Origin: Gammaproteobacteria bacterium
Lineage (GTDB): Bacteria > Pseudomonadota > Gammaproteobacteria > Pseudomonadales > Halieaceae
Direction of reading: 5' to 3'
Length of the DNA: 55,351 nt
NCBI GenBank assembly: GCA_030426545.1
Contig: JAUHYL010000022.1
Span: forward strand, 1-55,351
The position numbers were made by a program, and so were the translations under genes. A model generated the notes under the pieces. It made no database searches. It was not told the DNA's origin and saw only the letters and a program-made list of their open reading frames with translations. Of the stretch, positions 1-16,997 are shown piece by piece. Every line of letters starts with the position of its first letter. Within the stretch, counting starts at the first letter, position 1.

Positions 1-12
1 TAGCCTAACCCC

Positions 13-58
13 ACCAACAAAAAAGCCCACCCCTGATGGGGTGGGCTTTTTTGTTGGT
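13..58. terminator. Perfect 21-bp inverted repeat, bidirectional intrinsic terminator
   Basis: Arms 13-33 and 38-58 are exact reverse complements around a 4-base loop (TGAT), with a GC-rich stem and six-base A and T runs on either side. It can work in both directions. Read on the minus strand it lies just beyond the 3' end of tRNA-Val as it would have been before insertion, so it is probably the displaced native tRNA terminator. Its right arm overlaps the att repeat at 54-58. Confidence 0.85.
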
Positions 59-68
59 AGGACTACCC
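54..68. repeat. att direct repeat, distal end of element
   Basis: TTGGTAGGACTACCC is identical to 8915-8929. It duplicates the last bases of tRNA-Val (acceptor strand, discriminator and CCA) plus neighbouring tRNA sequence, as expected for a tRNA-targeting tyrosine integrase. Confidence 0.9.
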
Positions 69-130
69 TCTAACGTCAAATATTCTTAACTAGTTGATAT
101 ATATAGTATTTAATCTACAACGATTCATAT

Positions 131-151
131 ATACCCCCATTTATACCCCCA
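131..151. promoter_or_regulatory. Candidate integrase arm-type sites, distal side
   Basis: ATACCCCCA occurs twice (131-139 and 143-151) with a 12-bp period, about 65 bp inside the att repeat. A matching pair with the same 12-bp period sits inside the opposite end (8783-8803). Paired repeats near both att cores are the usual layout of tyrosine-integrase arm sites; the assignment is inference. Confidence 0.5.
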
Positions 152-281
152 ACTAAGGTCTCACACCCCCGAAATCCACCGCCCCGGAAGGCTATAGTTT
201 CTTGAACCGCATCAAAGGCGCCGAGTCCTTGGGAACCTCGCAACTCTTGGAAATTCGTGAATCTTCAATGATTACTTGAAA

Positions 282-331
282 TTGGGTAATAAATACCTAA
301 TATTGAATTTGGGTATTTTATACCCTATACT
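282..331 (+). promoter_or_regulatory. Promoter with two operator palindromes for the toxin-antitoxin operon
   Basis: A -35 element TTGAAT (303-308) and a -10 element TATACT (326-331) are 17 bp apart. A perfect inverted repeat, GGGTAT-TTT-ATACCC (311-325), fills the spacer exactly. A related imperfect palindrome (282-300, GGTA...TACC core) lies just upstream. A protein bound at 311-325 would block RNA polymerase, which fits autorepression by the HTH protein encoded at 703-1155. Confidence 0.6.
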
Positions 332-376
332 CCGATGCCCGCCGGCAGGGAGGTTCAGCTTCCGGCTGATTAAAGA

Positions 377-700
377 ATGCAAGGAAACGTCCACAATTTA
401 GCAGACCACCCTAAGCAAATTAGGGCTTTGGTTGCGGAACTGACGGCAGATTTGTCTTGTGTCGACTTTTCCGAAAACCTTAACGATCTCGTTCAGGCAC
501 GAAAGGTGAGCATGCGGGCCATTTGGCACGTGCTTGAGGATGGTGAAATTGTTGACGAGCATACCAGCCGGAATGACAACGGACTCTATCTCAAAATGTA
601 CGACGTTGTTGCAGGTATTCATATTTATGTTGACTTGGTGGTTGAGCCAGGAGAGCAAAGAATTGTTGTCTTATGGGCTGAAGAGGAAGAGGAGGAGTGA
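377..700 (+). CDS. Small protein upstream of HTH antitoxin, probable toxin
   Basis: This is a 107-residue acidic protein that I do not recognise with certainty. Its central part (about residues 45-103) alternates charged and hydrophobic residues, with HVLEDGEIVDEH followed by beta-strand-like segments. It loosely resembles small DUF4258-type proteins that occur as toxins. The C-terminus is a run of glutamates, and the DNA encoding them (GGAGG at 691-695) doubles as the ribosome binding site of the next gene. It is the first gene of an operon driven from 303-331, with a palindrome between -35 and -10. The ATG at 377 has only a weak ribosome binding site. Its toxin role is inferred from the small size, tight coupling and HTH partner. 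Confidence 0.6.
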   Translation: MQGNVHNLADHPKQIRALVAELTADLSCVDFSENLNDLVQARKVSMRAIWHVLEDGEIVDEHTSRNDNGLYLKMYDVVAGIHIYVDLVVEPGEQRIVVLWAEEEEEE

Positions 701-702
701 CC

Positions 703-1155
703 ATGAAATCTGAAAAGCTCTTTCGCTACGCTGCGAGCGGCCTTCCAGACGTTTGGTTAGCTGGAGGAGTTACTGAGCGCACAACTCAAAATGGCACGGT
801 ATTCCACATTGATCAGGTGAAAGATTTACACCAGGCGATCGGACTTAATCTCGTCCAAAAAGAGGGGATACTGACGCCTGACGAATTTCGATTCTTAAGG
901 ACGGAGATGCACTTTTCTCGTCGAAATCTAGCCGAGCTAATGGATGTATCTGGCGAAACTATAAAGTCATGGGAGTCAGGCAAGTCCGACATCCGAAAAA
1001 TGGCCGATGCTTGTCTAAGAAATCTTTATTTGGACCATATTCATAACGACAAGATTAGATCACTAATCTCTAAAATCAATCATGAGGAGCGACAAGCAGT
1101 AAAACTTTGCCTGTCTAAAACAACCCAGGGCTGGCAGAAAACCGTTGCCAACTGA
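703..1155 (+). CDS. XRE-type HTH protein, probable antitoxin/autorepressor
   Basis: This 150-residue protein has an N-terminal YAASGLPDVWLAGG segment followed by a conserved-looking LHQAIGLNLV region. A helix-turn-helix lies at about residues 70-100 (SRRNLAELMDVSGETIKSWE), followed by a helical tail. The N-terminal module plus HTH is typical of antitoxin-type regulators. ATG 703 is preferred over an upstream GTG at 697 because GGAGG at 691-695 lies 7 bases before it. The start lies 2 bases after the upstream stop codon, so translational coupling is likely. It probably binds the palindromes at 282-325. An intrinsic terminator follows at 1175-1198. Confidence 0.75.
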   Translation: MKSEKLFRYAASGLPDVWLAGGVTERTTQNGTVFHIDQVKDLHQAIGLNLVQKEGILTPDEFRFLRTEMHFSRRNLAELMDVSGETIKSWESGKSDIRKMADACLRNLYLDHIHNDKIRSLISKINHEERQAVKLCLSKTTQGWQKTVAN

Positions 1156-1174
1156 TCAATAGTCTTTAGAAGTT

Positions 1175-1198
1175 ACCCCGCTTCGTGCGGGGTTTTTT
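1175..1198 (+). terminator. Intrinsic terminator of the toxin-antitoxin operon
   Basis: The hairpin ACCCCGC-TTCG-TGCGGGG is followed by six T, 19 bases after the antitoxin stop codon. The UUCG-type tetraloop makes it very stable. Confidence 0.9.
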
Positions 1199-1292
1199 AT
1201 GCCTGGACAGTTTGCCCTTATGCTCGATCGATTCAATTTTCCTTCAATAGTCGTTTGTCGGGGCTCCGTTGACGAACGGCTCATTGATTACC

Positions 1293-1359
1293 CCCCCGGG
1301 GTCTTTTTGAAATCGGGTCTTGTATATGTGACCTGGGTGCCCGACAAATTTTGGAAATT
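1293..1359. repeat. 67-bp perfect repeat, copy 1
   Basis: It is identical to 3262-3328 over all 67 bases and sits in an otherwise gene-free stretch (1199-1415). It contains a TCGGG...CCCGA dyad and an A/T-rich end (AAATTTTGGAAATT). With copy 2 it brackets the cargo module at 1416-3257. Its nature is unknown; no integron attC core is evident. Confidence 0.9.
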
Positions 1360-1415
1360 TCTGAACCCCAACTACAGCCGAGCCATAATGCGTCATAACA
1401 AGGGTAGCTGGTGGT

Positions 1416-1901
1416 TCACTTCTGCCCAACCACTCTCAACATCATATCGTTGAGCATATTCGAGTATTCCGCTTCTGAACCACAGACTTCTATCGTGGCC
1501 CTTGCTTTCTCCTCAAAATCTTCCGGCTCGAGTTCAAGCATGCCCAAAACATAGGTCTTCGATGTGTCGCGCAACGAGTCAGCTCTATTTTTCCAAATTT
1601 CATACGCTTCCTGAGTCGAGTCCATGCCCTCGGTCATAAACGTTTCATTCACTTTGACCGCTAGTGCAGACGTCCAAAAATTGCCCCCCAGATTGCTGAC
1701 ATGCTCTGCGAGATTAGGTTTGCCCGACGCGTCATAAAGTTCACTCAGGGCCTCCATGAACCCAGCACAGGCACCGAAAAATTCTTGTTGTTTCTCAACT
1801 GGTTCCAACATAATTTCTGGTCCAGCTTTGGTCACTAGGCTTTCGGCCAAAACCCAGGTAGCAAGTAACATTGCGATCAAAACAGTCGCCACTTTTCTCA
1901 T
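1416..1901 (-). CDS. Exported hypothetical protein
   Basis: This is a 161-residue protein with a clear signal peptide. The positively charged MRK start is followed by a hydrophobic stretch and a likely cleavage after WVLA-E, near residue 20. The mature part is acidic and helical with two cysteines (CAGFMEAL and VCGSEAEY) that could form a disulfide in the periplasm. ATG 1901 is chosen because AGAGGG lies 8 bases upstream; an in-frame GTG at 1910 lacks that spacing. I do not recognise the family. It is the only minus-strand gene inside the repeat-bracketed cargo module. Confidence 0.65.
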   Translation of the reverse strand: MRKVATVLIAMLLATWVLAESLVTKAGPEIMLEPVEKQQEFFGACAGFMEALSELYDASGKPNLAEHVSNLGGNFWTSALAVKVNETFMTEGMDSTQEAYEIWKNRADSLRDTSKTYVLGMLELEPEDFEEKARATIEVCGSEAEYSNMLNDMMLRVVGQK

Positions 1902-2170
1902 CGACCACACCCTCTAAACCAGCCTAGTAGTTCCAGATTATTTGCAACATCGAAGAACCTCAACCTAACTTGGATACTAGCAAAAGGGGGCAGATTATAT
2001 ACTGGTCCCCAACTAGGCATGCCCCACCCACGCCACCAGTCTTGGATTGCGGGCTTGAACTGGGTGTGGAAACTGGCCATTGCCCTTACAATAGCAGTAA
2101 CGCCGTCATCCATTAGGAAGCCCGACAGCGTTGCCCCGGAACTCCTATAGTCTCCTTAGGAGGAGAACCT

Positions 2171-2515
2171 ATGACCGGCATATATATATTGTTTGCTTGG
2201 ACACTCTTATTCGCGACAGTTGCTTGGGCTGATACGGTTGAACTGTACTGCAGAGATTCGACCGGTGCCGAAAGTTTCGCGGTAGTCGTCGACCAAGTGA
2301 GCGAATCGCTTGTTTTGAACGGTGAAGCTGTTGGCGCCAGAAATGATGGTGGGGGAAGCCCTCAATACATCTGGCGATGCGGTCATGTAGATGCAAGTAT
2401 AAGGTACCGCCTCCTATTGGATCGCCAAACATTAGAGTTTGATTACTGGGAATTATCGGAAGGCAGCAAGATCACCAGAAGTGGAGTTTGTCAGAAACTC
2501 GAATTAAAAATATGA
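2171..2515 (+). CDS. Small exported hypothetical protein
   Basis: This 114-residue protein starts with a signal peptide (hydrophobic residues 4-19, then AWA-D at the probable cleavage site). The mature part contains three cysteines and looks beta-rich, suggesting a small secreted or periplasmic domain. A strong AGGAGG ribosome binding site lies just before the ATG. No known family is recognised. It is followed by another exported-protein gene (2575), probably in the same transcript, inside the module between the two 67-bp repeats. Confidence 0.65.
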   Translation: MTGIYILFAWTLLFATVAWADTVELYCRDSTGAESFAVVVDQVSESLVLNGEAVGARNDGGGSPQYIWRCGHVDASIRYRLLLDRQTLEFDYWELSEGSKITRSGVCQKLELKI

Positions 2516-2574
2516 CCGCAGCAGATAGTTTAAGTGGGGCAGTGAATAGCAAGTATGATCTTTGGAGGCTATGC

Positions 2575-2988
2575 ATGCGCTGGGCGTTTTTTTTCTTTGT
2601 TATGCTCATTGTTGACCCCGTGACCGCTTCTAATCTCAAGTGCACCACTAGGGACGCTGTCTACCTCGAAGAAGATGGCACCTTCCATGCACATCCATCG
2701 CGAGAGCGCAATTTGAGGAAGGTATTTTTCGTGGATACCTTAACCGGCGAGATGACCGGCGAACTGACCAACGTCATTGGCACGCTAGGGAAACCGGTAT
2801 TGCTGGATAAAGATGTGCCTGAGTATGGGCCACTGAAGGTGCTAACTTTTTTAAACCCCGGAGACAATCCCGGTTCAATCTACTACTTGCAGATCAACTG
2901 GCTACACAAGAAAGAGAAACCCTTCATGTACCTAACAAGCGACTTCGGAATTGTCACCGGCACTTGTGTAGATACTCAGTTACCGTAA
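2575..2988 (+). CDS. Small exported hypothetical protein
   Basis: This 137-residue protein has a signal peptide (MRW, a hydrophobic FFFFVMLIV core, then VTAS-N near residue 18). The mature part carries two cysteines, one at each end (LKCTTRD and GTCVDTQ), which could pair. ATG 2575 is chosen over two upstream in-frame starts because GGAGG (2563-2567) lies 7 bases before it and because this start gives a normal signal peptide. It probably shares a transcript with the gene at 2171. The family is unknown. Confidence 0.62.
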   Translation: MRWAFFFFVMLIVDPVTASNLKCTTRDAVYLEEDGTFHAHPSRERNLRKVFFVDTLTGEMTGELTNVIGTLGKPVLLDKDVPEYGPLKVLTFLNPGDNPGSIYYLQINWLHKKEKPFMYLTSDFGIVTGTCVDTQLP

Positions 2989-3089
2989 GAATTGCAAAAT
3001 ATCCAACCAAGAAATCACAGCATTGGGGACAGGCCCAAGCTTGCAAAGCTGTCGATTAGAAAGATGCACTCACTTTGGAGGCTGTCGCA

Positions 3090-3257
3090 TTGGAACTAAC
3101 GGAGCAGGGATTACTCTTACTCATTCTAATAATCACAGGCTGGTCACATCTGAGCCAAGAGCGTCGCGCAGAGAGATTTGAGCGTGAGATTACTAACCAA
3201 CTCGATAGGATCGAGTCCCAGATCGAGCTTTTGCATACCAGGGACGATTCCTTCTAA
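3090..3257 (+). CDS. Short single-span membrane protein with coiled-coil tail
   Basis: This 55-residue protein has one hydrophobic span (LLLLILIITGW, about residues 8-19). A charged amphipathic segment rich in E, R and Q follows, which could form a coiled coil. The start is TTG 3090, with GGAGG at 3077-3081 and an 8-base gap. The same TTTGGAGGCT context precedes the gene at 2575. The stop lies 4 bases before the second 67-bp repeat. Its role is unknown; the architecture resembles small membrane-anchored accessory proteins. Confidence 0.5.
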   Translation: MELTEQGLLLLILIITGWSHLSQERRAERFEREITNQLDRIESQIELLHTRDDSF

Positions 3258-3261
3258 CCCA

Positions 3262-3328
3262 CCCCCGGGGTCTTTTTGAAATCGGGTCTTGTATATGTGA
3301 CCTGGGTGCCCGACAAATTTTGGAAATT
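3262..3328. repeat. 67-bp perfect repeat, copy 2
   Basis: It is identical to 1293-1359 and begins 4 bases after the stop of the small membrane-protein gene at 3090. Homology ends abruptly on both sides (3261 and 3329 both differ from copy 1), so the copies have defined borders. Confidence 0.9.
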
Positions 3329-3393
3329 CCCTAGGCCATGGCAGCAAAGCCAAATTAGATGGGTTCACTGAAAGGAAGAAGAGAGAACAAAGG

Positions 3394-3942
3394 TCAAGAT
3401 TCGGCTCGCCACAACGACTCTAGGTACTCATGAGCTTTTGTCGAAAGTTGGTTGTGCAGGTCCCACCACTTCAATACGCGTGACTGCAGTTCTTCCTTAT
3501 CGTACTTGAGCAGCATATTGACTGAGCTGGCCAGCAATACTTGGTCATATGTGCTAGTTATCAATGGCGCAAACTCCTTCGGGAATACAAGCCTTGCTTC
3601 GTTGTACGCCTTTAGCAACTCAACATTGACCCTATCCAACCGTGCTACAGCCTCCTTTTGGTCCGTTTCGGAGGGATCTGTGCCAGCTTCATCCATCAAC
3701 AACTGCTTAGTTGCTATCGACGTATCGCCAGCTTCATGACAAGTACCCAAGAAGTTGACGATAGCTCTTCGAGCCTCGTCATATCTCTTATCTGCCCGTG
3801 TGGCTTGAGTCCTTAGTCGGAATTGCTCATCTTCCCGCCAAGCAGCCCACCAAGCTCCCGATATGGCTCCAACAAGAGGGCCAACAGCGCCCCATATTGC
3901 CGCCCATGGCAGCGACTTCACCTCACTCCAAAATGATGACAT
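3394..3942 (-). CDS. Membrane-anchored helical hypothetical protein
   Basis: This is a 182-residue protein. Residues 11-33 (AAIWGAVGPLVGAISGAWWAAW) are a likely single membrane span, followed by a long, charged, mostly helical domain. No catalytic motif is apparent. It lies outside the repeat-bracketed module, between the second 67-bp repeat and the terminase-like gene. I do not recognise the family. The layout of one anchor plus a cytoplasmic helical domain recalls small phage-exclusion or effector proteins, but nothing in the sequence proves this. Confidence 0.6.
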   Translation of the reverse strand: MSSFWSEVKSLPWAAIWGAVGPLVGAISGAWWAAWREDEQFRLRTQATRADKRYDEARRAIVNFLGTCHEAGDTSIATKQLLMDEAGTDPSETDQKEAVARLDRVNVELLKAYNEARLVFPKEFAPLITSTYDQVLLASSVNMLLKYDKEELQSRVLKWWDLHNQLSTKAHEYLESLWRAES

Positions 3943-4073
3943 GGCACAGCCTATTTGCTTAAAAGGCCAAAGATACCGCCTTTCTCGCCAGTTGATTCAT
4001 TGACGCTATTGACTGCATGTAGCATATAGCTACACACTATGGAAATACAACAACCTGCATTGGTGCATTAGTA

Positions 4074-4526
4074 ATGCCAGATATAGATGATTCAGTACAT
4101 CACTTGAATGAGTTAAAGCTCACACGTCGCAGGCCCGGCTTAAAGCCTGGTCAAAAGCATTCTGGGAGCTTCAGAAAGGGCCATGATCCTCGAAGAAATA
4201 CCCACGGCAGTCGAATGCTCAGCAAGGAATTCCTGACGCTCGTGCGGGAAAACTCTGAGCAGGCCGTGGAGGTTGTGGTCCGCTGTATGAATGATGAACA
4301 AGCGTCCTGGCGGGACAGAACGGCGGCGGCTGGACTGATTATTAGCTACGCGCATGGCAAGCCAGTAGACCGCCTGGCGGTGACCTCAATGGATGAGTCT
4401 CAGCGTAGCAGTGGCTCAAGGCCATCAATGTCTGAGCTGATGGCGAGAGTCGAGGGCTACATGGAACGACAAGAAGCACTCGAGGGGGAAGCAGTCGAAA
4501 CACCCCACGACGCCCAACCTGATTAA
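4074..4526 (+). CDS. DUF5681-like protein, resembles phage small terminase subunit
   Basis: This is a 150-residue protein. The basic N-terminus has the glycine-rich FRKGHDPRRN motif (about residues 37-46) typical of DUF5681 and related small-terminase-like proteins. It is followed by a helical region ending in AHGKPVDRL, another hallmark of these proteins, and a low-complexity acidic tail. Phage TerS proteins recognise the packaging site; in satellites a private TerS redirects a helper phage's packaging. A symmetric CCGAT array starts 35 bases after the stop. It is the only plus-strand gene in this half of the element. The family call is from motif memory; the role is inferred. Confidence 0.6.
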   Translation: MPDIDDSVHHLNELKLTRRRPGLKPGQKHSGSFRKGHDPRRNTHGSRMLSKEFLTLVRENSEQAVEVVVRCMNDEQASWRDRTAAAGLIISYAHGKPVDRLAVTSMDESQRSSGSRPSMSELMARVEGYMERQEALEGEAVETPHDAQPD

Positions 4527-4561
4527 TCACTGCGTTTTTTTCAACACACCCATCCACCCAC

Positions 4562-4601
4562 CCGATAAAACCGATAAATTCGAATAAATCGGTAAAATCG
4601 G
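4562..4601. promoter_or_regulatory. Symmetric array of four CCGAT boxes (candidate origin or packaging site)
   Basis: CCGAT occurs at 4562 and 4571, and its complement ATCGG at 4588 and 4597. Each pair has a 9-bp period, and the four are placed exactly symmetrically about a central TTCGAA (4579-4584). The linker A runs are not complementary, so this looks like a protein-binding array rather than an RNA hairpin. It lies between the convergent ends of the small-terminase-like gene and the primase-like gene. A role in element replication or packaging is inference; a terminator is less likely. Confidence 0.55.
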
Positions 4602-4628
4602 TACGGCATATGTGCATTCTGAAAAAAT

Positions 4629-6158
4629 TCACTCTTCGATATCGTGTGGATTCTTGTAATAAACGCAGCGAGGTTTAGTGCCCGTCTTAACCTCAAGCGC
4701 ACCAATATAACCGTGATCGACTAAAGCTTTTAGAGCGGTATCTATCTCATCGGCGCTGGCCAGGCCAGACCACCCCTTATTGTTGAAATCTGATTTAGTA
4801 AACGGGTTTGGGAGCGTATCGAATCGCTTTAGGAGGCTACGTGCGCCATGGTACTGGTCAGACGCGAGCGCATAGATACGCCGAGCATGTGCCTCTAGAA
4901 AGTCACACCACACCGTTGCACGGGTTGCGGCTATATCCCCTATTTCACCCTCGGCACCATCAGCTAGATGGAAGATCAGCGCCAATGCAGGCATTAGGCT
5001 ATGCATTTTGACGAGGTGTGCCTCGACATGTGTATCTCGCTCCGTTGCCTCCTTGACGAGCATAGCCTCATACCATTCATCAAAGACAATCTGAGCGTCA
5101 GGGTCGAACCCCATACCAGCCTCGCTGCCGTCAAAATCAGGTAGTTTATCGATGCTCTCAAATAGGTCCGCTACTCGCCGCTTAGCCGCCTCGTTGGGTT
5201 TCCTGTCGACGCGGGCAGGCGGTAAAGGGTCAGGCCAAACCATTAATTGAAAGCGCTGCAACAAGCCGTCGTCGCCGTTACCTGACGCCATGGATCGAAG
5301 ATAGGGCCGGACTTTTGCAGGCTGAATGCCGCCTACAATGCCTAGACAAAGGCTGGGTACATGGATACTACCCCGGCCAATACGGTCCCATGAAAATGAA
5401 GCATTACCGTTCCATGCTTCCAGAAAGAATGCCCGGTCCTGCTCGCGTCCGACCTGATCCAACGAAGCCAACCATCCCGTTAATTCATCACGATAAAGCA
5501 GCAAACCGTTTGGGTTTTCTCGTAGCAACTCGCCGGCTTTTTCTATGGTCGAATCGTTCAGAACGTACCGCTTTTGCGCTGGCGGCTCAGGTTCCTCCCG
5601 GTCTATTGCTTCGAGCATACTACGAGCCTCTGCGATGTCTCGCTTAGCGGCCTTTTTAAGATCGACTTCTTGTGCTTTGCGGTACACCTTCGCTGCTTCA
5701 ACACTAATTGCGTGGTCTTTACTTTCAAGCTCGAACCGATGCCGTGCGTCGTTTTCTAGTGATTTGGTAAATGACAGTGCAGCACCCAGAGCTGGAGACT
5801 TTTTGGTTGATGGGCCGCCAATACACGCTCCCCAGAGGTTAGGCACCACCACCCACTCACTTTCCTCCCGTTTAGGCCGTACCGCCAGACGTCGGCCAAT
5901 AAGACTGCCCAAGGCGCACAGTACGCCCACTGCAACAAAGTCCAGGGGCATACGATCCATGCGCTCTGCTGTGTCCTGTACCCAGTCTCGAAGTGCATTC
6001 GGCAACATGTCTGCCTTTAGTTCCGGTACGGGTAGTAGGTCTCTCCCTAGCGGTTTGGGATCATGCCAGGCTAGTGGGTCTAACAGGATTTCGTGGGCGC
6101 TAAATTCTTCAGCACGTTGCTCGAGTTCAAGCGCTTCCATACGACGCCCCCGTCGCAT
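4629..6158 (-). CDS. DUF3987 primase/helicase-like replication protein
   Basis: This is a 509-residue protein. A P-loop-like GGPSTKKSP sits at residues 114-122, and the hydrophobic strand GLLLYRDELTGWLASLD (about 218-234) is the Walker-B-like segment usual in DUF3987. The NDSTIE motif at 201-206 and the GIVGGIQP segment are also typical. The last ~100 residues look like a winged-helix domain. DUF3987 proteins are common replication proteins of satellites and islands. The P-loop has T-K-K-S rather than G-K-S/T, as in many members. The start overlaps the upstream small gene by 32 bases; an internal ATG (6140) would reduce this to 14. It probably acts on the CCGAT array just beyond its 3' end. 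Confidence 0.85.
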   Translation of the reverse strand: MRRGRRMEALELEQRAEEFSAHEILLDPLAWHDPKPLGRDLLPVPELKADMLPNALRDWVQDTAERMDRMPLDFVAVGVLCALGSLIGRRLAVRPKREESEWVVVPNLWGACIGGPSTKKSPALGAALSFTKSLENDARHRFELESKDHAISVEAAKVYRKAQEVDLKKAAKRDIAEARSMLEAIDREEPEPPAQKRYVLNDSTIEKAGELLRENPNGLLLYRDELTGWLASLDQVGREQDRAFFLEAWNGNASFSWDRIGRGSIHVPSLCLGIVGGIQPAKVRPYLRSMASGNGDDGLLQRFQLMVWPDPLPPARVDRKPNEAAKRRVADLFESIDKLPDFDGSEAGMGFDPDAQIVFDEWYEAMLVKEATERDTHVEAHLVKMHSLMPALALIFHLADGAEGEIGDIAATRATVWCDFLEAHARRIYALASDQYHGARSLLKRFDTLPNPFTKSDFNNKGWSGLASADEIDTALKALVDHGYIGALEVKTGTKPRCVYYKNPHDIEE

Positions 6159-6309
6159 AGCACACTGCCTGGAAGGCTAGAAACCGCTTGTTCTGCTGCT
6201 CTGTAGGTCTCCCCCCTGCCCTAACTAAATGACGGTACTGCATGCACCAGCGATGCATGGCGAGTAGCTCAGATCGGGAAAAATTGGCTGTCGGATGGTC
6301 TATAAGCAT
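6127..6309 (-). CDS. Small hypothetical protein in the replication operon
   Basis: This 60-residue, mostly helical, basic protein (YRHLVRAGGRPTEQQNKRFLAFQ) has no recognised domain. It overlaps the preceding gene (6300-6509) by 10 bases and the primase-like gene by up to 32 bases. It is therefore likely co-translated in an AlpA-small-small-primase operon. Short overlapping genes of this sort are common between alpA and the primase in satellites and P4-like islands. It could be a DNA-binding or accessory replication factor, but nothing shows this directly. Confidence 0.55.
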   Translation of the reverse strand: MLIDHPTANFSRSELLAMHRWCMQYRHLVRAGGRPTEQQNKRFLAFQAVCYATGASYGSA

Positions 6310-6509
6310 CGGCCAAACCTCACAGACTCTTTGCGAGCATGATTGAGCGCGATTAGGTCAATAAGCCGCCTCCTCTGCTCTGGGCTTTGCTTGCTCAGCG
6401 GTATAGCGGCCAGTTCATTTATAGCTTCATGCTCATGGTTGCCCGCTGTGTTCTTCTGATGCAATTTCTCTCTGCGCTTTAATCGCGCAGTCTCGATTTG
6501 CACAATCAT
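6300..6509 (-). CDS. Small basic hypothetical protein in the replication operon
   Basis: This is a 69-residue protein rich in arginine, lysine and glutamine (RLKRREKLHQKN...SPEQRRRLIDLIALNHARK). It looks all-helical. ATG 6509 is preferred because GGGGA lies 5 bases before it; a TTG at 6521 is also in frame. It is the first of two tiny overlapping genes downstream of the AlpA-like regulator. No family is recognised. The basic character suggests nucleic-acid binding, which is inference only. Confidence 0.5.
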   Translation of the reverse strand: MIVQIETARLKRREKLHQKNTAGNHEHEAINELAAIPLSKQSPEQRRRLIDLIALNHARKESVRFGRCL

Positions 6510-6561
6510 CACATTCCCCAATGCAAATTGATCTCTCTAAGGCTTGCTGTGGCGGCAAGCC

Positions 6562-6816
6562 CTAGTCCAATTTAGGTGCTGAAGTAACCCACTTTTCAGC
6601 TACTTCCGAGTCTGCGCGCGACAGCGCTACACGTTCGGTCAGCCAGAGATTTATTTCTGATTTGAGCCAACCAGATGCACGGGGGCCTAGCTTTATAGGC
6701 TTTGGGAATTTCCCATCAGCCGCTAATGCATGCGCATGACTTCGGCTGATGGGTACGATCTTGGCCACTTCAGGCCAGCGTAATACAGGATCAATGGTTA
6801 CTGTTTGCTTTGCCAT
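6562..6816 (-). CDS. AlpA-family transcriptional regulator (MerR-like HTH)
   Basis: This 84-residue protein has the AlpA layout: a helix-turn-helix with VAKIVPISRSHAHALAADGKFP (about residues 17-38), then the KPIKLGPRASGWLKSEINLWL segment that matches the 'RxxxWxxxEIxxWL' ending of the family. AlpA proteins switch on excision or replication genes of P4-like prophages and islands. It is the first gene of the operon leading to the primase-like gene. AAGGAG lies 10 bases before the ATG. It may act on the dyad in its own upstream region (6863-6892) or on the integrase promoter. Confidence 0.88.
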   Translation of the reverse strand: MAKQTVTIDPVLRWPEVAKIVPISRSHAHALAADGKFPKPIKLGPRASGWLKSEINLWLTERVALSRADSEVAEKWVTSAPKLD

Positions 6817-6851
6817 GCCTTTCGCTCTCCTTGGGCGTTATCGACACCTAT

Positions 6852-6892
6852 AGAATAGGAGGCGTGAGAGGGATTAGTAACCGTCACTCACG
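6852..6892 (-). promoter_or_regulatory. Candidate alpA promoter and overlapping dyad
   Basis: On the minus strand TTACTA (6875-6880) and TATTCT (6852-6857) are separated by 17 bp. An inverted repeat CGTGAG/CTCACG (6863-6868 and 6887-6892) spans the -35 region and could bind a regulator. The -35 match is weak. Confidence 0.35.
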
Positions 6893-6968
6893 TTAGAAGC
6901 GCGTAAAACGAGCGAATAGAGGCAAAAATTAGAAGTGTTAGAGTTTGTTCGGACTGGTTCCGGACTAA

Positions 6969-7433
6969 TTAGCTGAATCGACCTTCCTTTCTCCAGTCAT
7001 AGAAAGAGGACTTTTTTAGCGCAGGTGCCATTCTTGGATACTTGAATCTCATCTTTTCATGGGCCTTCTTGAAGGAGAGATTGCCCCATGCCTCATCTTT
7101 GATGATTCGGATAAGCTCTTGGGAAACATCTCCTTTACCTCGCGTCATCAATTGAACGCGGTAAAGCTCCCTGTAAAGCTCATCAATCTTATCTCGTACT
7201 TGGAAAACGTCGTACACCATTTCTAGGTCGGCTCGGATGCTATCTTTACCGCCGCACTCAGCGTACTTTGTGGCCACGCTCTCCAGTGCTCCTCGAATTT
7301 CAATCACCATACATCGAGCCTTCGAATGACGTACGCCCGTAAGCTCGACATCGTCTGGAAGATCGTTGAAAGCCTTCGCGACCAAATCAGGAATGCGAGG
7401 GCAATCGCCCCCATTTTCATGGATTCTTCTCAT
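6969..7433 (-). CDS. Hypothetical protein next to integrase
   Basis: This 154-residue, largely helical and charged protein carries no recognised motif. The C-terminal part (KKAHEKMRFKYPRMAPALKKSSFYDWRKEGRF) reads like a DNA-binding helical bundle and resembles the ends of small satellite regulators, but I cannot name a family. It lies between the integrase (55 bases away) and the AlpA gene, all on one strand. It may be a directionality or regulatory factor; this is inferred from position only. Confidence 0.55.
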   Translation of the reverse strand: MRRIHENGGDCPRIPDLVAKAFNDLPDDVELTGVRHSKARCMVIEIRGALESVATKYAECGGKDSIRADLEMVYDVFQVRDKIDELYRELYRVQLMTRGKGDVSQELIRIIKDEAWGNLSFKKAHEKMRFKYPRMAPALKKSSFYDWRKEGRFS

Positions 7434-7487
7434 TGGTCAGCCCGCCCTACTTCCTTAACCGCTCAAATTTAGCCGCCAGTCTCGCCC

Positions 7488-8717
7488 CTAGCTTGCTCCA
7501 AAGCTCGCCGTGACAACGTTATCTGCCGTATCCTGCGCTTTTAGGTCGTCAAGATAATTGGCCCACTGCTGCATCATTTTCTCGCGCTCTTTCAAATGGG
7601 TTGTGCGGTTATAGGCGCGCCCATTCGTATCTTTCACAGCGTGGGCTAGCTGATGCTCGATATAATCCACTCGAAAGCCAAGTTCTTCATCCAGCAGTGT
7701 ACGGGCCATGGCCCTAAATCCGTGGGCAGTCATCGTGTCGTTGTCATAGCCCATTGTGCGCAGCGCGACCCTAACGCCGTTGTCACTCAAGGGCCGATGA
7801 TTCCCTCTGGCGCTGGGGAGCACATAACGTCCTCGCCCCGTACTGCGTTTTAGTTCTTTCAACAACGTAATTGCTTGTTTCGGTAAAGGCACAACATGCG
7901 GCTGCTTCATTTTCATTTTCTCCGCGGGCAACTCCCAAATTTTCTTCTCCCAATCAATCTCACTCCATTCCATAGCTCGAATCTCCCCAGGGCGCTGGAA
8001 TAGGATTGCGGATAACTTGAGAGCAGTTTTCACTATAGGAGTGCCTTCATAGGCATCAATGGCAATCAATAGCTTGCCCACGCTCTTGGGGTCAGTAATC
8101 GCAGCAAAGTGCTTCTTGTTGGTCGGCTGGAGTGCCCCCTTCAAGTCTGCAGCCGGATCACGGTCACAACGCCCGGTAACGATGCCATACCGGAACACTT
8201 GCCCGGCTGATTGTTTAACGCGGTGAGCCATATCCACAGCGCCACGCGATTCCACCTTTCTGAGTGCCGCCAGTAACTCCTGCGCGGTGATCTGGTTGAT
8301 GGGACGATGCCCAAGAGCGGGGAACAAGTCATTCTTCAAGCCCCGCCAAGTGCGATCCTGATATCCCTGCGCTTTATTCTGCATCTTGGTCTGGAACCAC
8401 TCAGTGGCAATAACCTTGAAGCTATTCCCACCTTCTTCCTTCTGTGCCTGCTTGCGGACCCGTTTAGCTACGGAAGGATCAATCTCATTCGCTAGCTGGC
8501 TGCGCGCTTCGTCACGTTTATCCCGCGCACCGGCCAAAGACAGATCAGGGAACACACCAAGGGCGAGCAGCTTTTCCTTACCGCCGAAGCGGTACTTCAA
8601 GCGCCAATACTTTGAGCCATTTGGATTGACCAGCAAGAACATCCCCTTCTCATCAGAGAGCTTGTACGGCTTCTCACGGGGCTTTGCCTGTTTAACCGCT
8701 GTAGCTGTTAGCGCCAT
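7488..8717 (-). CDS. int: P4-type tyrosine site-specific integrase
   Basis: This is a 409-residue integrase. The N-terminal DUF4102 arm-binding domain (MALTATAVKQAKP...KLSDEKGMFLLV) is typical of integrases that insert in tRNA genes. A SAM-like core-binding domain follows, then the catalytic domain with Arg242 (RPGE), His332-Arg335 (HGFR), His359 (LAH) and the nucleophile Tyr369 (AYNR). All catalytic residues are present, so it should be active. ATG 8717 is chosen because AGAGGG lies 7 bases upstream; a GTG at 8738 is in frame but lacks this. The gene reads away from the tRNA and in the same direction as it. It recombines the 15-bp att cores. Confidence 0.96.
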   Translation of the reverse strand: MALTATAVKQAKPREKPYKLSDEKGMFLLVNPNGSKYWRLKYRFGGKEKLLALGVFPDLSLAGARDKRDEARSQLANEIDPSVAKRVRKQAQKEEGGNSFKVIATEWFQTKMQNKAQGYQDRTWRGLKNDLFPALGHRPINQITAQELLAALRKVESRGAVDMAHRVKQSAGQVFRYGIVTGRCDRDPAADLKGALQPTNKKHFAAITDPKSVGKLLIAIDAYEGTPIVKTALKLSAILFQRPGEIRAMEWSEIDWEKKIWELPAEKMKMKQPHVVPLPKQAITLLKELKRSTGRGRYVLPSARGNHRPLSDNGVRVALRTMGYDNDTMTAHGFRAMARTLLDEELGFRVDYIEHQLAHAVKDTNGRAYNRTTHLKEREKMMQQWANYLDDLKAQDTADNVVTASFGAS

Positions 8718-8755
8718 TGATACGCCCTCTATGCTCACTGTGAGGAACGTCTGTC

Positions 8756-8812
8756 GGGGGTATCGCGCTGAAGCGCTTGGATATACCCCTACAAATACCC
8801 CCTATGGGGGTA
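8756..8812. promoter_or_regulatory. Candidate integrase arm-type sites, tRNA side
   Basis: ATACCCCTA (8783-8791) and ATACCCCCT (8795-8803) repeat with a 12-bp period, matching the pair at 131-151. Inverted copies are present at 8756-8763 and 8804-8812. They lie between integrase and att core, where a tyrosine integrase binds its arm sites and can also regulate its own promoter. The stretch 8739-8915 otherwise holds no gene and no obvious terminator. Confidence 0.5.
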
Positions 8813-8915
8813 CCATATTGGCAGACAGTATCAGGCACTACAAGAACGAAAACAGATGAAAATCGCTATTTTTATAGGGCATGAAGCCATTATCGGATGT
8901 TGCCGGAAGGGAGTT

Positions 8916-8992
<77 letters not shown>

Positions 8993-9017
8993 GTCATACT
9001 TGAAACGAGGGGGAGCG

Positions 9018-9046
9018 ATTATAAGTGCCCGCCGGGGAATGCTCAA
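9018..9046 (-). promoter_or_regulatory. sigma-70 promoter of tRNA-Val
   Basis: On the minus strand TTGAGC (9041-9046) and a consensus TATAAT (9018-9023) are 17 bp apart, with the tRNA starting about 25 bases downstream. Because the tRNA's terminator is now at 13-58, transcripts from here could read into the integrase. Confidence 0.8.
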
Positions 9047-9079
9047 CTGTCCCGGCGCGGGCCAAAACGGACCAGGTAG

Positions 9080-9967
9080 ATGGCAGATGACTGGCGGGCG
9101 ATAGAAGAGGCGATTAGCGGGGTCACGGGCGAGCCTTTCAGGGTGGCAAGCGCCGCCACCGTGGCCGGGGGGGACATCAATCGAGCGTTCAGGATCGAGG
9201 GCAGCGGGCAACGCTATTTCCTGAAGCTCAACAACCCCGGTATGGGCGACATATTCTGCGCTGAAGCCGAGGCATTGCGCGCCATTGATCGCGCACGGGC
9301 GGTACGCACTCCCCTGCCCCTGACTGCCGGCGAAGATGCTCAGCAAAGCTGGCTGGTGCTGGAGTGGCTTGATCTGCAGCCCGGGGGCAAAGCGGACGCC
9401 GCGCTGCTGGGTGAACAGCTTGCCCGCATGCACCGCAGCGTGTCTGAGACCTTTGGCTGGCATCGCGACAACACCATTGGCCGTACGCCGCAGATCAACA
9501 CGCCCGGTGAGGACTGGGTGAACTTCTATGGCAGGCATCGTCTGGGATACCAGTTGGAACTGGCCGCCGCCAACGGCGCCGGGAGCGCATTGAGCGACAG
9601 CGGGGCGCGGTTGCTGGAGGTGCTGGGCACGCTCTTCACCGATTATCGGCCACAACCCTCGCTGCTACACGGCGACCTGTGGGGTGGCAACTGGGCCTGC
9701 ACCGTGGACAACGGGCCGGTTATTTTCGACCCGGCCAGTTACTATGGCGATCGCGAGGCAGACCTTGCCATGACGGAGTTATTCGGCGGTTTCGATGAGC
9801 GATTTTATCAGTCATACGTGAGCGCCTGGGCCATTGATCCCGGCTACAGTACGCGTAAAGTGCTGTACAACCTGTACCACGTTCTGAACCATTTCAACCT
9901 GTTCGGTGGTGGCTACGCCGGGCAGGCGCAGCGCATGATTGGCAGCCTGCTCGCGGAGATTACCTGA
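9080..9967 (+). CDS. Fructosamine/ketosamine-3-kinase family protein
   Basis: This 295-residue protein has the aminoglycoside-phosphotransferase-like fold of fructosamine kinases. It has a nucleotide-binding lysine (about residue 49, YFLKL), the catalytic loop HGDLWGGN (197-204) and the metal-binding DPASYYGDREAD segment (217-229). The family phosphorylates sugar amines on glycated proteins or small molecules so that they decompose, a cytoplasmic deglycation repair. The length matches the family. It is the first gene of a forward run with the LLM oxidoreductase 25 bases downstream, but no functional link to the acyl-CoA genes there is evident. Confidence 0.93.
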   Translation: MADDWRAIEEAISGVTGEPFRVASAATVAGGDINRAFRIEGSGQRYFLKLNNPGMGDIFCAEAEALRAIDRARAVRTPLPLTAGEDAQQSWLVLEWLDLQPGGKADAALLGEQLARMHRSVSETFGWHRDNTIGRTPQINTPGEDWVNFYGRHRLGYQLELAAANGAGSALSDSGARLLEVLGTLFTDYRPQPSLLHGDLWGGNWACTVDNGPVIFDPASYYGDREADLAMTELFGGFDERFYQSYVSAWAIDPGYSTRKVLYNLYHVLNHFNLFGGGYAGQAQRMIGSLLAEIT

Positions 9968-9992
9968 GCGACCCCACCCGGGAGACCAGCGG

Positions 9993-11003
9993 ATGAAAGT
10001 CAGCGGCATGCTCACTGCCGACCTCGACATGGCACCACTGTCCATAGCGCAGCTTGAAGACTGCGGCTACGACGCCGCCTTTTCCGCCGAGATCAACAGC
10101 GATCCGTTCTTCCCGCTGGTGCTGGCGGCAGAGCACTCGGAAAAAATCGCCCTGACTACGTCCATCAGCGTGGCCTTCGCGCGCAACCCGATGACCATGG
10201 CCAACCTCGCCTGGGACCTGAACCAGTACTCACAAGGGCGGTTCACGCTGGGTCTGGGTTCACAGATCAAGCCGCACATCACGCGGCGCTTTTCGATGCC
10301 GTGGTCCAGCCCGGCTGCACGCATGCGCGAGTACATCGAGGCGATGCGCGCAATCTGGGCCTGTTGGGAGCACGGCGAGGAATTGAACTTCAACGGCAGG
10401 TTTTATCGTCACGACCTGATGACACCCATGTTCACACCACAGAACAAGGCGTTCGGCGCACCGCGGGTGAACCTGGCCGCCGTGGGGCCGCTGATGACAC
10501 AGGTTGCGGCGGAAGTTGCCGATGGCCTCATCGCGCACGGCTTCACCACGGCAAAATACCTCGCCGAGGTCACATTACCCGCCGTAGAACAGGGCCTGAA
10601 AGATGCCGGGCGAAAACGCACAGACTTTGTCGTCAGCGCACCGGTAATGGTGGTAACGGGCGTTGACGCCGCAGCCTTTGCAGCGTCCAAACAGGCGGTG
10701 CAGGCACAACTCGGTTTTTATGCGTCCACCCCCGCCTATCGCCCGGTACTGGAATTGCACGGGTGGGGTGACCTGCAGACCGAGGCTCACAAACTCACGC
10801 GGGAAAACCGCTGGGGAGACATCGGCGAGTTGATCACCGACGATATACTCGATGCCTTCGCGGTTGTGTGCGAAAACATCAATGAAGTACCCGGCGAATT
10901 GTCACAGCGTTACGGTGCTCTCGTCGACAACTGGCTGTGCACCGTGGTAACAGGCGATACCGAAATTCAACAGAAACTGGTCGCGGCGGTGCAATCCGCC
11001 TGA
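9993..11003 (+). CDS. LLM-class flavin/F420-dependent oxidoreductase (TIGR03617-like)
   Basis: This is a 336-residue TIM-barrel protein of the luciferase-like monooxygenase family. Typical segments are SISVAFARNPMTMANLAWDL, GRFTLGLGSQIKPHI and RRFSMPW. The close similarity to the protein at 51511-52521 (GLGTQVKAHIERRFSMPW) puts both in the same subfamily, which in actinobacteria is predicted to use coenzyme F420. The substrate is unknown. The ATG at 9993 follows a GGAGA-type site; an upstream in-frame ATG (9939) lies inside the kinase gene and is less likely. It precedes two acyl-CoA dehydrogenase genes, suggesting a role in fatty-acyl or steroid-type catabolism. Confidence 0.88.
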   Translation: MKVSGMLTADLDMAPLSIAQLEDCGYDAAFSAEINSDPFFPLVLAAEHSEKIALTTSISVAFARNPMTMANLAWDLNQYSQGRFTLGLGSQIKPHITRRFSMPWSSPAARMREYIEAMRAIWACWEHGEELNFNGRFYRHDLMTPMFTPQNKAFGAPRVNLAAVGPLMTQVAAEVADGLIAHGFTTAKYLAEVTLPAVEQGLKDAGRKRTDFVVSAPVMVVTGVDAAAFAASKQAVQAQLGFYASTPAYRPVLELHGWGDLQTEAHKLTRENRWGDIGELITDDILDAFAVVCENINEVPGELSQRYGALVDNWLCTVVTGDTEIQQKLVAAVQSA

Positions 11004-11074
11004 AGAATGATGCATGGTATGGGGCGGGCTTGACGCCGGCCCCTCACTACCGGGAAAAGGAGAAGCACAAGGGC

Positions 11075-12256
11075 ATGAACATAGAGCTAACGCCACAACA
11101 AAAGGCGCTGCAGCAGGAAGTGCGGGACTACATGAAGACAGTCATGACGCCCGAGCTGCTGGAAGAAATGAAAAATGACGAACTCAAGGAGGGTGGCGGC
11201 CCGGAGTTTCGCAAACAGTACGCGCGCATGGGCGCCGACGGCTGGATAGGGCTGTCCTGGTCGAAAGAGCTGGGCGGCAAGGAAATGTCGCACCTGGAGC
11301 AGTACATTTTCACCGACGAAGTGGTGCGCTCGGGTTTTGCCTACCCGTTTCTGACCACCGAGGCAGTAACACCGGTGATCGCGGCCAACGCCAATGCCGA
11401 AGTGCGTGAAGAAGTTGTCGGCGGCGTGAAACAGGGCAAGGTGGTGATCGCAATCGGCTACTCCGAACCCAGCGCCGGCACCGACCTGGCCAGTTTGAAA
11501 ACGCGCGCGGTGAAAGACGGCGATGACTGGATCATCAACGGCCAGAAAATGTGGACCAGCCTTGCCAACTACGCCGACTACGTGTGGCTGGCGGCGCGCA
11601 CCGACCCGGATGCGTCGAAAAAGCACAAAGGCCTGACCATGTTCCTGGTGCCCACCGACTACGAGGGCTTTTCAGTAACACCCGTACACACGCTGGGTGT
11701 GCGCACCAATGCCACGTACTACAACGACGTGCGACTGCCGGACAAGTACCGCGTGGGCGAAGTCAACGCGGGCTGGAAACTGATAACCGGGCAGCTCAAT
11801 ATCGAGCGCCTGTCACTGTTCACCCACGGCCAGGTGGATTCACTGTTCGTCGACACCTGCAAATGGGCAGCGGAGACAGACGCCCCCGGCGGCGGCAAAG
11901 TGATAGAGCAACCCTGGGTACAACACAACCTGGCGCGGGTAAAAAGCGGGTTGGAAGTGGTCAAGCTGATCTGCTGGAAGCAGGCCTGGGCCATGGACCA
12001 GGGCCCGCTGGACATGGCCGATGCCTCCATGGCGAAGGTGTACAGCAGTGAGTTCTTCGTGGAACTGTACCGGCTGCTGCTGGAAGTACTGGGCAGCGCA
12101 GGCACCATTGCCGCCCATTCACCGGGCGCGGTACTCAAGGGCCGCATCGAGTTTCGCTGGCGCGTCGGTTCCATCCTCACCTTCGGTGGCGGCGCCAACG
12201 AGATTCAACGAGACATCATTGCCATGGCGGGGCTGTGGATGCCCCGCACGCGCTAG
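11075..12256 (+). CDS. Acyl-CoA dehydrogenase, larger subunit-type
   Basis: This is a 393-residue flavoenzyme oxidising acyl-CoA to enoyl-CoA. The N-terminal helical domain is followed by the YSEPSAGTDLASLKTRA signature (about residues 130-146) and the C-terminal GGGANEIQRDIIA motif. ATG 11075 is the family-like start, preceded by AAAAGGAGAAG; longer in-frame starts run into the LLM gene. A second, divergent acyl-CoA dehydrogenase starts 12 bases downstream. Such adjacent pairs in steroid side-chain degradation (ChsE/FadE type) form alpha2beta2 heterotetramers. The pairing here is inferred. Confidence 0.95.
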   Translation: MNIELTPQQKALQQEVRDYMKTVMTPELLEEMKNDELKEGGGPEFRKQYARMGADGWIGLSWSKELGGKEMSHLEQYIFTDEVVRSGFAYPFLTTEAVTPVIAANANAEVREEVVGGVKQGKVVIAIGYSEPSAGTDLASLKTRAVKDGDDWIINGQKMWTSLANYADYVWLAARTDPDASKKHKGLTMFLVPTDYEGFSVTPVHTLGVRTNATYYNDVRLPDKYRVGEVNAGWKLITGQLNIERLSLFTHGQVDSLFVDTCKWAAETDAPGGGKVIEQPWVQHNLARVKSGLEVVKLICWKQAWAMDQGPLDMADASMAKVYSSEFFVELYRLLLEVLGSAGTIAAHSPGAVLKGRIEFRWRVGSILTFGGGANEIQRDIIAMAGLWMPRTR

Positions 12257-12268
12257 GGAGGAATCAAC

Positions 12269-13402
12269 GTGGATTTTACGATTTCAGAAGAACTGAAAAG
12301 TGTGCAGCAACTGGCGGCGCAGATCCTCGGTGATTTCACCGAGGTAGACAAATTGAAGGCTGTGGAAGCGCAGGAAGAACGCTTTGATCCCGCGCTGTGG
12401 CAGGCACTGGCAGAAGCGGGCTTGCTGGGGTTGGATATAGAGGAAGCGCACGGCGGCATGGGGATGGGCTTTTTCAGCCTCACTACCCTGTGCGAGGAAG
12501 TGGGCCGATGCGTTGCCCCGGTACCGGTGGTGCCGGTGCTGGTTGGCGCGGCCGGCGTGCTACGACGTTTTGGCACCGATGCGCAGAAGGATCAGTGGCT
12601 ACCCGGTATTGCCAACGGCAGCCACCGTGTCAGCAGCGCGCTGGAAGAGTACGGCAATGAGAATCCTCAAGCCCCGGCTGCTACCGCGCAAAAAGAGGAT
12701 GGCGGTTACGCCATCAGCGGCACCAAGGTCTGCGTCGTGGGTGCATCGTCCGCGACGCGCGTACTGCTCTCGGCTAAAAACGACGAGGAATTGCTGGTAG
12801 CGCTGATCGACCCCCAGGCTGCCGGCGTTACCCTGAATCCGCAGCTTGTCACCAGCGGAGAAACTCGCTTTGAGCTGGTGCTGGACAACGTACAGGTACC
12901 CGCCGGGGACATCGTCGCCACCGGCGGCGCGGCGCGAGAGGCAATGAACTGGGCGCAACAGGCAACGCAGACGGCATTGGCTGCAACGGCTGTCGGCCTG
13001 AGTGACAAGATGATGCGCATCACCGGCAGCTATACGTCGGAGCGGGAACAGTTCGACCGGGCCATCGCTACTTTCCAGGCAGTCAGCCACCGTGTGGCCG
13101 ACTGCTACATCGATGTGGAATGCCTGCGGCTGGTGACACAGCAGGCCGCCTCCCTGATCGATCAGGGCAGGCCTGCAGGGGACGCCGTTACCATGGCCAA
13201 GATCTGGTGTGGTGATGTTGCACACCGCGTCAGCCAGGCCGCGCAACACTGCCACGGCGGCACCGGCGTAGACAGGGATTATCCGCTGTTTCGCTACTGC
13301 CTGATGGCGCGGCAGATTGAGCTGGAGGCAGGTAACAGCGCGCGTATGACCGGACTGCTGGGAGAACAGATCGCGGCGGAGTATCTTTCCGCAACGGGCT
13401 GA
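12269..13402 (+). CDS. Acyl-CoA dehydrogenase, smaller partner-type
   Basis: This 377-residue acyl-CoA dehydrogenase-fold protein has EREQFDRAIATFQAVSHR (FAD/acyl contact helix) and HCHGGTGVDRDYPLFRY near the C-terminus. The central 'SEP.AGTD' type signature seen in its neighbour is replaced by a divergent SALEEYGNENPQAP segment. This is common in the non-catalytic or half-site partner of heteromeric acyl-CoA dehydrogenases. It has a GGAGG ribosome binding site within 12 bases of the upstream stop. It converges tail to tail with the membrane protein gene at 13422. Confidence 0.92.
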   Translation: MDFTISEELKSVQQLAAQILGDFTEVDKLKAVEAQEERFDPALWQALAEAGLLGLDIEEAHGGMGMGFFSLTTLCEEVGRCVAPVPVVPVLVGAAGVLRRFGTDAQKDQWLPGIANGSHRVSSALEEYGNENPQAPAATAQKEDGGYAISGTKVCVVGASSATRVLLSAKNDEELLVALIDPQAAGVTLNPQLVTSGETRFELVLDNVQVPAGDIVATGGAAREAMNWAQQATQTALAATAVGLSDKMMRITGSYTSEREQFDRAIATFQAVSHRVADCYIDVECLRLVTQQAASLIDQGRPAGDAVTMAKIWCGDVAHRVSQAAQHCHGGTGVDRDYPLFRYCLMARQIELEAGNSARMTGLLGEQIAAEYLSATG

Positions 13403-13421
13403 CGAAACCCGCTGTCGCCTG

Positions 13422-15146: not shown

Positions 15147-15172
15147 GGTGGCCGTCTGTTCTCCGTTGCGCG

Positions 15173-16885: not shown

Positions 16886-16997
16886 TGATTATCCGGGCGG
16901 TTGGCTTGCGTCAGTATCCAACCGGTCCGGGCGAAAAGAAAGTCGCGGCGCTATATTAAGTTGCCGTGTTACTGGCATCGCCCGCGCAGGCGCGGCC

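Follow-up and report, generated by a model that had tools for sequence, protein, structure and literature searches.

A PICMI-like core joined with a PICI-like packaging gene in a putative phage satellite at tRNA-Val of a Halieaceae bacterium

The known families of phage satellites are listed in a review (PMC11389934), and several described systems bear on the element considered here. Phage-inducible chromosomal islands (PICIs) sometimes carry a terS gene, encoding a terminase small subunit (TerS), that redirects the packaging of the helper phage, and AlpA activates a Gram-negative PICI (PMC6092414). In the phage-inducible chromosomal minimalist islands (PICMIs) of the Vibrionaceae the integrase gene comes first, then alpA and then a gene for a DUF3987/DUF5906 primase; PICMIs are located at fis and are reported never to occur without it, their 6.1-kb prototype has six genes, and the word "terminase" does not occur in the text of that paper (PMC10803314). 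Capsid-forming PICIs (cf-PICIs) and the Streptomyces satellites carry a packaging motor together with a capsid (PMC10690885), and the authors of the AH14b satellite of Pseudomonas could identify no terminase in it (PMC4936722). Here we analyze the whole of contig JAUHYL010000022.1 (G000:C138; 55,351 bases, hereafter the window) from a gammaproteobacterium of the Halieaceae, assembly GCA_030426545.1, which is 97.85% complete in 141 contigs. Positions 54-8929 of the window form a well-bounded unit of ~8.9 kb that appears, from its sequence, to be a PICMI-like core joined with a PICI-like packaging gene. The unit is probably a PICI/PICMI-type phage satellite in integrated form; it would be excised and packaged, and its orphan TerS would steer the packaging motor of a helper.

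The core of the unit lies on the minus strand and reads inward from the tRNA. A tyrosine integrase (7488-8738; Pfam Arm-DNA-bind_3, Phage_int_M and Phage_integrase) is followed by a 154-aa open reading frame (ORF) that takes the place of the int-contiguous gene of PICMI (6969-7433), an AlpA-family regulator or excisionase (6562-6816; PF05930, E 1e-14; phrog_2790, E 2.8e-9), two ORFs of 73 aa (6300-6521) and 60 aa (6127-6309), and the DUF3987 replication protein (4629-6158; PF13148, E 4.3e-78). None of the 154-, 73- and 60-aa ORFs has a match above the cut-off. The profile search proposed by an earlier note on this DNA therefore matched both AlpA and DUF3987. The 14 proteins of the unit that were scanned with PHROGs gave no match to capsid, portal, tail or terminase large subunit (TerL) families. 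With DUF3987 and AlpA the unit has its own replication and regulation genes, without a recognized complete virion gene set. That note's description of an integrative 8.9-kb unit with exact attachment (att) repeats, integrase, AlpA and DUF3987, and without capsid genes, agrees with the 15-bp repeat described below, with the Pfam matches and with the PHROG scan.

The unit resembles PICMI in its small size, in the order of integrase, int-adjacent ORF, alpA, small ORFs and DUF3987-type primase, in its direct-repeat att sites and in the absence of recognized capsid remodeling genes. Co-localization of integrase, AlpA and DUF3987 is shared, whereas integration at fis is not: the window unit lies at tRNA-Val(gac), measures 8.9 kb and carries a TerS and a cargo arm. 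With terS-bearing PICIs and Staphylococcus aureus pathogenicity islands (SaPIs) it shares an integrase, the AlpA known from Gram-negative members, a replication module and its own TerS homolog. Unlike the Escherichia coli PICIs, it has DUF3987 instead of Pri/Rep (the sequences themselves were not compared), its TerS belongs to a lineage of viral contigs (L012, L013 and L068-L072), and its terS is convergent to the replication operon. In the primase-then-origin layout of PICIs, DUF3987 occupies the place of the primase, and near-palindromic ATCGGT/ACCGAT repeats at 4556-4612, lying where terS and DUF3987 meet with their 3' ends, would be the candidate origin; they could also be a terminator, and the fold of 4527-4628 has z scores of -2.3 (plus strand) and -3.0 (minus strand). 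The AH14b satellite is similar in its integrase, AlpA-like regulator and primase and in lacking its own structural gene set, but the window unit differs in having a TerS. Of the cf-PICI set of capsid, portal, protease, TerS and TerL, TerS alone was recognized. The use of an own TerS to hijack helper packaging, which the earlier note had invoked, is indeed an established PICI strategy (PMC6092414). Its proposal of a new satellite family is too strong, because both a core in the PICMI order (PMC10803314) and the terS strategy of PICIs were already known.

The boundaries of the unit are clear. A 15-bp direct repeat without mismatch, TTGGTAGGACTACCC, stands at either end, and the window holds just two copies of it: attL at 8915-8929, at the 3' end of the tRNA-Val, and attR at 54-68, the far-end copy, identical to that 3' end. 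The 15-mers of the tRNA region were present in none of 1000 Markov resamples of positions 1-8900. The tRNA-Val(gac) that served as integration target occupies 8916-8992 on the minus strand. The intrinsic terminator of this tRNA, an inverted repeat forming a hairpin with a T-run, is found on the minus strand at 10-61, outward of the left att, and its fold (1-70, minus strand) has a z score of -7.9. In two congeners, G014 and G015, the terminator directly adjoins tRNA-Val with no insertion between them, and the left end of the window and its tRNA side align to either side of this uninterrupted site; insertion has therefore displaced the terminator by ~8.9 kb. The unit thus combines an integrase with att repeats at a specific site. 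Its G+C content is 49.8%, against 59.9% at 9000-55351.

The packaging gene lies at 4074-4526 on the plus strand, convergent to the DUF3987 operon, and encodes a 150-aa protein that is very likely a small terminase subunit, here an orphan. Two lines of evidence support this identification: the order of genes, both in viral contigs and in related islands, and the similarity of a profile to solved small terminases. In the IMG/VR contigs L012 and L013 a relative at 35% identity is encoded by a gene that overlaps the gene for TerL, which is followed by a 718-aa portal protein (phrog_12082 in L013). A scan of IMG/VR with that TerL retrieved seven contigs (L012, L013 and L068-L072), all of which have a TerS homolog upstream of TerL, directly in five and one 228-aa ORF away in two. 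L012/L013 and L068/L069 are near-identical pairs, so that the seven contigs stand for few lineages only. In L071 both a portal and a major head protein were matched, and in L013 a portal. The window TerS is 42% identical to that of L071 over 108 aa, 41% identical to that of L072 and 41% identical to that of L013 over 94 aa, and the TerS family common to the window and the viral contigs carries the motif GxKPGQKHSGxFxKGxDPRRN, slightly varied in L013. A seven-row profile, A4, built from the window protein, the L006 island protein and five viral proteins, found the small terminases 6w7t (E 0.0038) and 7joq (E 0.046) as its best two matches in the PDB, and an artificial alphaRep as the third (E 0.8).

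The earlier note had called this protein DUF5681/TerS-like. The TerS part of the name stands on gene order and the PDB profile; DUF5681 as a family name was rejected, as the protein has no match to PF18932 even at E 10. Neither at E 0.1 nor at E 10 does it match any Pfam family. Profile A4 also retrieves proteins in G800 and G677, one above the DUF5681 cut-off and that of G677 0.1 bit below it, and the DUF5681 label therefore fits distant kin only. As to structural likeness to TerS, which the note had made decisive, the seven-row profile (6w7t, 7joq) points to it, while the single sequence and the AlphaFold model are uninformative.

Relatives of the window TerS occur in 4 of 145 genomes, its own included; the others are G085, G053 and G004, whose TerS proteins are 29-38% identical to that of the window. 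In all three a TerL of 522-523 aa follows TerS on the same strand, 301-428 bp away, and matches phrog_38 (E 4e-78 to 1e-91) and Terminase_6C. An 18-bp repeat (4267-4284 and 17862-17879) at the 3' end of a tRNA-Leu, with a 17-bp copy at 17793, delimits the island of G053, Parahaliea maris (Halieaceae, Gammaproteobacteria according to NCBI), here L006. Island L007 may extend over 4788-17504, as 20 bp of the tRNA-Arg at 17478-17554 recur in a tRNA-Arg-like half near 4788; conserved tRNA letters could account for part of this match. For island L008, of G004, no bounding repeat of at least 13 bp was found. Each of L006, L007 and L008 combines a Phage_integrase match with TerS and TerL, and no portal or capsid match was found among their scanned proteins, some small ORFs being left out of the scan and L008 contributing only five proteins. 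The TerL of L007 has 54% identity to its counterparts in L013 and L071. The viral contigs L012, L013 and L068-L072 share their TerS family with the window and their TerL family with the islands, but they are phage contigs.

The pairing of this TerS family, in the related islands, with a TerL matching phrog_38 and Terminase_6C argues for a role in DNA packaging. It speaks against the view that the unit is a static or otherwise mobile island in which the TerS-like protein does not itself serve packaging but is a DNA-binding regulator, or a defensive decoy blocking the packaging of incoming phages. That view draws on the cargo of the window, whose function is obscure, and on an integrase-bearing island of G677 that has a TerS-like ORF, without a TerL in sight, beside a PADLOC Orf5/HEC-06 gene; we regard it as rather improbable. 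The replication genes that accompany TerS bear on another account, that TerS is hitch-hiking cargo unrelated to the spread of the unit, and that any transfer takes place through generalized transduction or other routes. The position of TerS at the border with the cargo arm, and the failure to find a pac site, would agree with it. However, TerS recurs with different replication genes, a RepB primase in L006, an AAA_25 protein in L007 and DUF3987 in the window, which suggests that it has been kept for an island function, and we consider the hitch-hiking account very improbable.

A decayed prophage, in which terS remained after the late genes of a provirus had been lost, would account for a TerS of phage type, for the lack of a remaining TerL and for the low G+C content. 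Against this, AlpA and DUF3987 belong to a core arranged as in satellites, and the reading frames of the unit are open; terS stands alone, in the orientation opposite to that of the replication operon, and among its scanned neighbors there is no match to a late-gene PHROG. In the related islands, too, TerS and TerL are the sole head or packaging matches among the scanned proteins. We therefore judge decay of a prophage to be unlikely and prefer the interpretation of the unit as an integrated satellite.

For such a satellite we propose the following course. Infection by a helper would raise AlpA, and AlpA together with the integrase would excise the unit. DUF3987 would then replicate it to concatemers, perhaps starting at the repeats at 4556-4612. 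The satellite TerS would bind a pac-like site on the concatemeric DNA and pass it to a helper TerL of the phrog_38 kind and to the helper procapsid, with the outcome that helper particles carry satellite DNA.

Several observations weigh against this proposal. The unit was not seen in an excised, circular or packaged state, nor was a pac site recognized. Related sequences are scarce, with TerS relatives in 4 and DUF3987 relatives in 3 of the 145 genomes, own genome included in both counts, and profile searches matched 3 of 390 and 3 of 369 genomes, again with its own, the others being weak. The profile that found the solved small terminases draws just one of its seven rows from the window, and the window TerS alone matches only artificial alphaRep proteins in the PDB, which we take to reflect helical-repeat composition. 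The AlphaFold2 model from the seven-row alignment is poor (helical, pLDDT 55.7, pTM 0.31), and the named phages, searched by tblastn with the window TerS, gave no match. The virions of a Salmonella phage were found to contain a DUF5681 protein (PMC8954984), which implies that not all distant kin act as plain TerS. Pattern scans of IMG/VR for TerS and DUF3987 gave phage contigs only and no virome copy of the satellite. Finally, the host assembly holds no phrog_38 TerL and no PF05065 capsid gene, the only TerL and capsid families searched there.

This last result makes an incoming helper more likely than a resident one. A podophage-like helper is suggested by the named phages with the most similar TerL and by a related TerL that has a P22-like portal next to it. 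The nearest named records for the TerL of the viral contigs are CBW1004C-Prop1, phiAO1 and Pam1, in a search that matched 1792 records of many kinds, and the gene lists of CBW1004C-Prop1 and Pam1 include DNA-transfer or needle proteins. A TerL profile (E 1e-20) run over 140 family genomes found six places in five genomes, namely the three islands, a region of G048, a second site in G004 and G051. The G048 region is phage-like and has the P22-like portal (PF16510, E 1e-98) beside the related TerL; at the second site of G004 and in G051, TerL is assigned by Pfam and lies beside ParB-like and recombinase-like ORFs, the neighbors being read from ORFs.

Relatives of the DUF3987 protein were found in 3 of the 145 genomes, again with its own, and an alignment-based search of IMG/VR found no relative. 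The closest (50-52% identity) is encoded by a congener on a 7.9-kb contig, G002:C73 (L050), together with a prohead protease, a phage capsid protein and an HNH nuclease. This is likely to be a capsid-forming satellite with a cf-PICI-like gene set, cut by the contig end, beyond which any TerS, TerL and portal of its own would lie; the likeness to cf-PICIs belongs to this congener, as protease, capsid protein and HNH nuclease were not recognized in the window unit. In the same genome, contig G002:C152 encodes an integrase 61% identical to that of the window, and its DUF3987 match is in two pieces.

It is conceivable, although we put this forward tentatively, that the Halieaceae hold graded terminase-bearing satellites on one phage TerS/TerL lineage, with TerS only in the window and TerS plus TerL without recognized portal or capsid in the three islands, alongside the congener capsid-forming type with its related replication gene. 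The wider surprise lies in the related TerS-TerL islands without recognized portal or capsid, one of which, L006, is clearly bounded. If the model is true, such islands would bring a whole packaging motor to the helper procapsid and stand between classical PICIs, with TerS only, and cf-PICIs, with motor and capsid; the step from TerS-only to capsid-forming satellites would become directly testable through them. Apart from this model, the analysis ties the orphan TerS of a PICMI-like island to an IMG/VR phage TerS/TerL lineage that could serve as helper. Further examples could be sought by the motif given above, located before, or without, a phrog_38 TerL. Among the literature matches listed, we found no satellite with TerS and TerL yet without a capsid, which is a weak negative, as most subscription journals and the papers on VEIME and tycheposons lay outside the search; nor did "Halieaceae" appear among the listed matches on prophages, satellites or terminases.

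Four more genes stand behind TerL in both L006 and L007, and two of them are 44% and 49% identical between the islands. A reading of these genes as ejection proteins was set aside, as its sole basis is a weak match (E 2e-4) of the 541-aa protein of L007 in a Bradyrhizobium phage, in its late region; the 513-aa protein of L006 and the 291-aa protein of L007 had no match in that phage comparison. For the TerL and the 513-aa protein of L006, IMG/VR gave no relative. L006 also has an HNH endonuclease match. In L008 a UvrD/GajB-like helicase, possibly a defense gene, forms cargo behind TerL (12337-15309). The G677 island (L086, on contig G677:C61) comprises an integrase, a DUF5681-like ORF on the opposite strand and the defense-like gene (PADLOC Orf5/HEC-06), and no TerL was seen among its ORFs.

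The left arm of the window unit, up to 3942, is best viewed as cargo. It opens with a 107-aa ORF on the plus strand (377-700), without a match above the curated cut-off or in PHROGs, that overlaps a gene on the same strand for a helix-turn-helix protein resembling MqsA-family antitoxins or regulators (697-1155; TIGR03830, E 1e-9, 38.3 bits and thus under the model cut-off of 61.8; phrog_5119, unknown function, E 4e-32). The two may form a toxin-antitoxin-like pair. Further cargo ORFs lie at 1416-1910 (minus), 2171-2515 (plus), 2488-2988 (plus, read from an inner ATG at 2575) and 3394-3942 (minus), and had no above-cut-off Pfam, PHROG or PADLOC match. A 67-bp direct repeat, exact between its copies at 1293-1359 and 3262-3328, borders the cargo genes, as if cassettes had been swapped there.

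The same repeat, at 93% identity, recurs at positions 123-189 of another contig of the host genome, C91. Positions 1-1584 of that contig (G000:C91, L049) represent the far end of a second related unit, with 84% identity to window 2207-3451 and 1-150 and with most of 150-2207 unmatched. It continues into the same att and terminator, positions 1510-1584 being identical to window 1-75, and then into a flank homologous to that of G015. This second unit could be a tandem copy, a sign of a mixed population or an assembly effect.

The earlier note had suggested a search for the same gene order at tRNA-Val in related genomes. We surveyed 25 tRNA-Val loci, the window's own included, over at most 1.5 kb per side, five of them shortened by contig ends, using tblastn with seven integrases (those of the window, G002:C152, L006, L007, L008, L016 and C126 of the host genome); the sole match was at the window's own site. 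In G050 (L016), which lies outside the 25 surveyed loci, an integrase-like ORF is found beside tRNA-Val. The site thus seems to be used by different elements and, by this limited test, to be mostly unoccupied.

A very small set on contig C69 of G263 (L017, 512-3119) consists of an integrase-like ORF, two ORFs and a short TerS-like ORF; this set and the similar one at tRNA-Val in L016, as read from their ORFs, are possible mini-elements. Matches of profile A1 in G050 and G263 were short and weak and were not counted in the TerS family. The host genome has two further integrase-like genes, at the end of contig C73 (G000:C73, L062) and at G000:C126:30041-31276 (L063). Their neighbors, read by eye, place the start of one behind a guaA-like ORF at a contig end and an AlpA-like ORF near the other.

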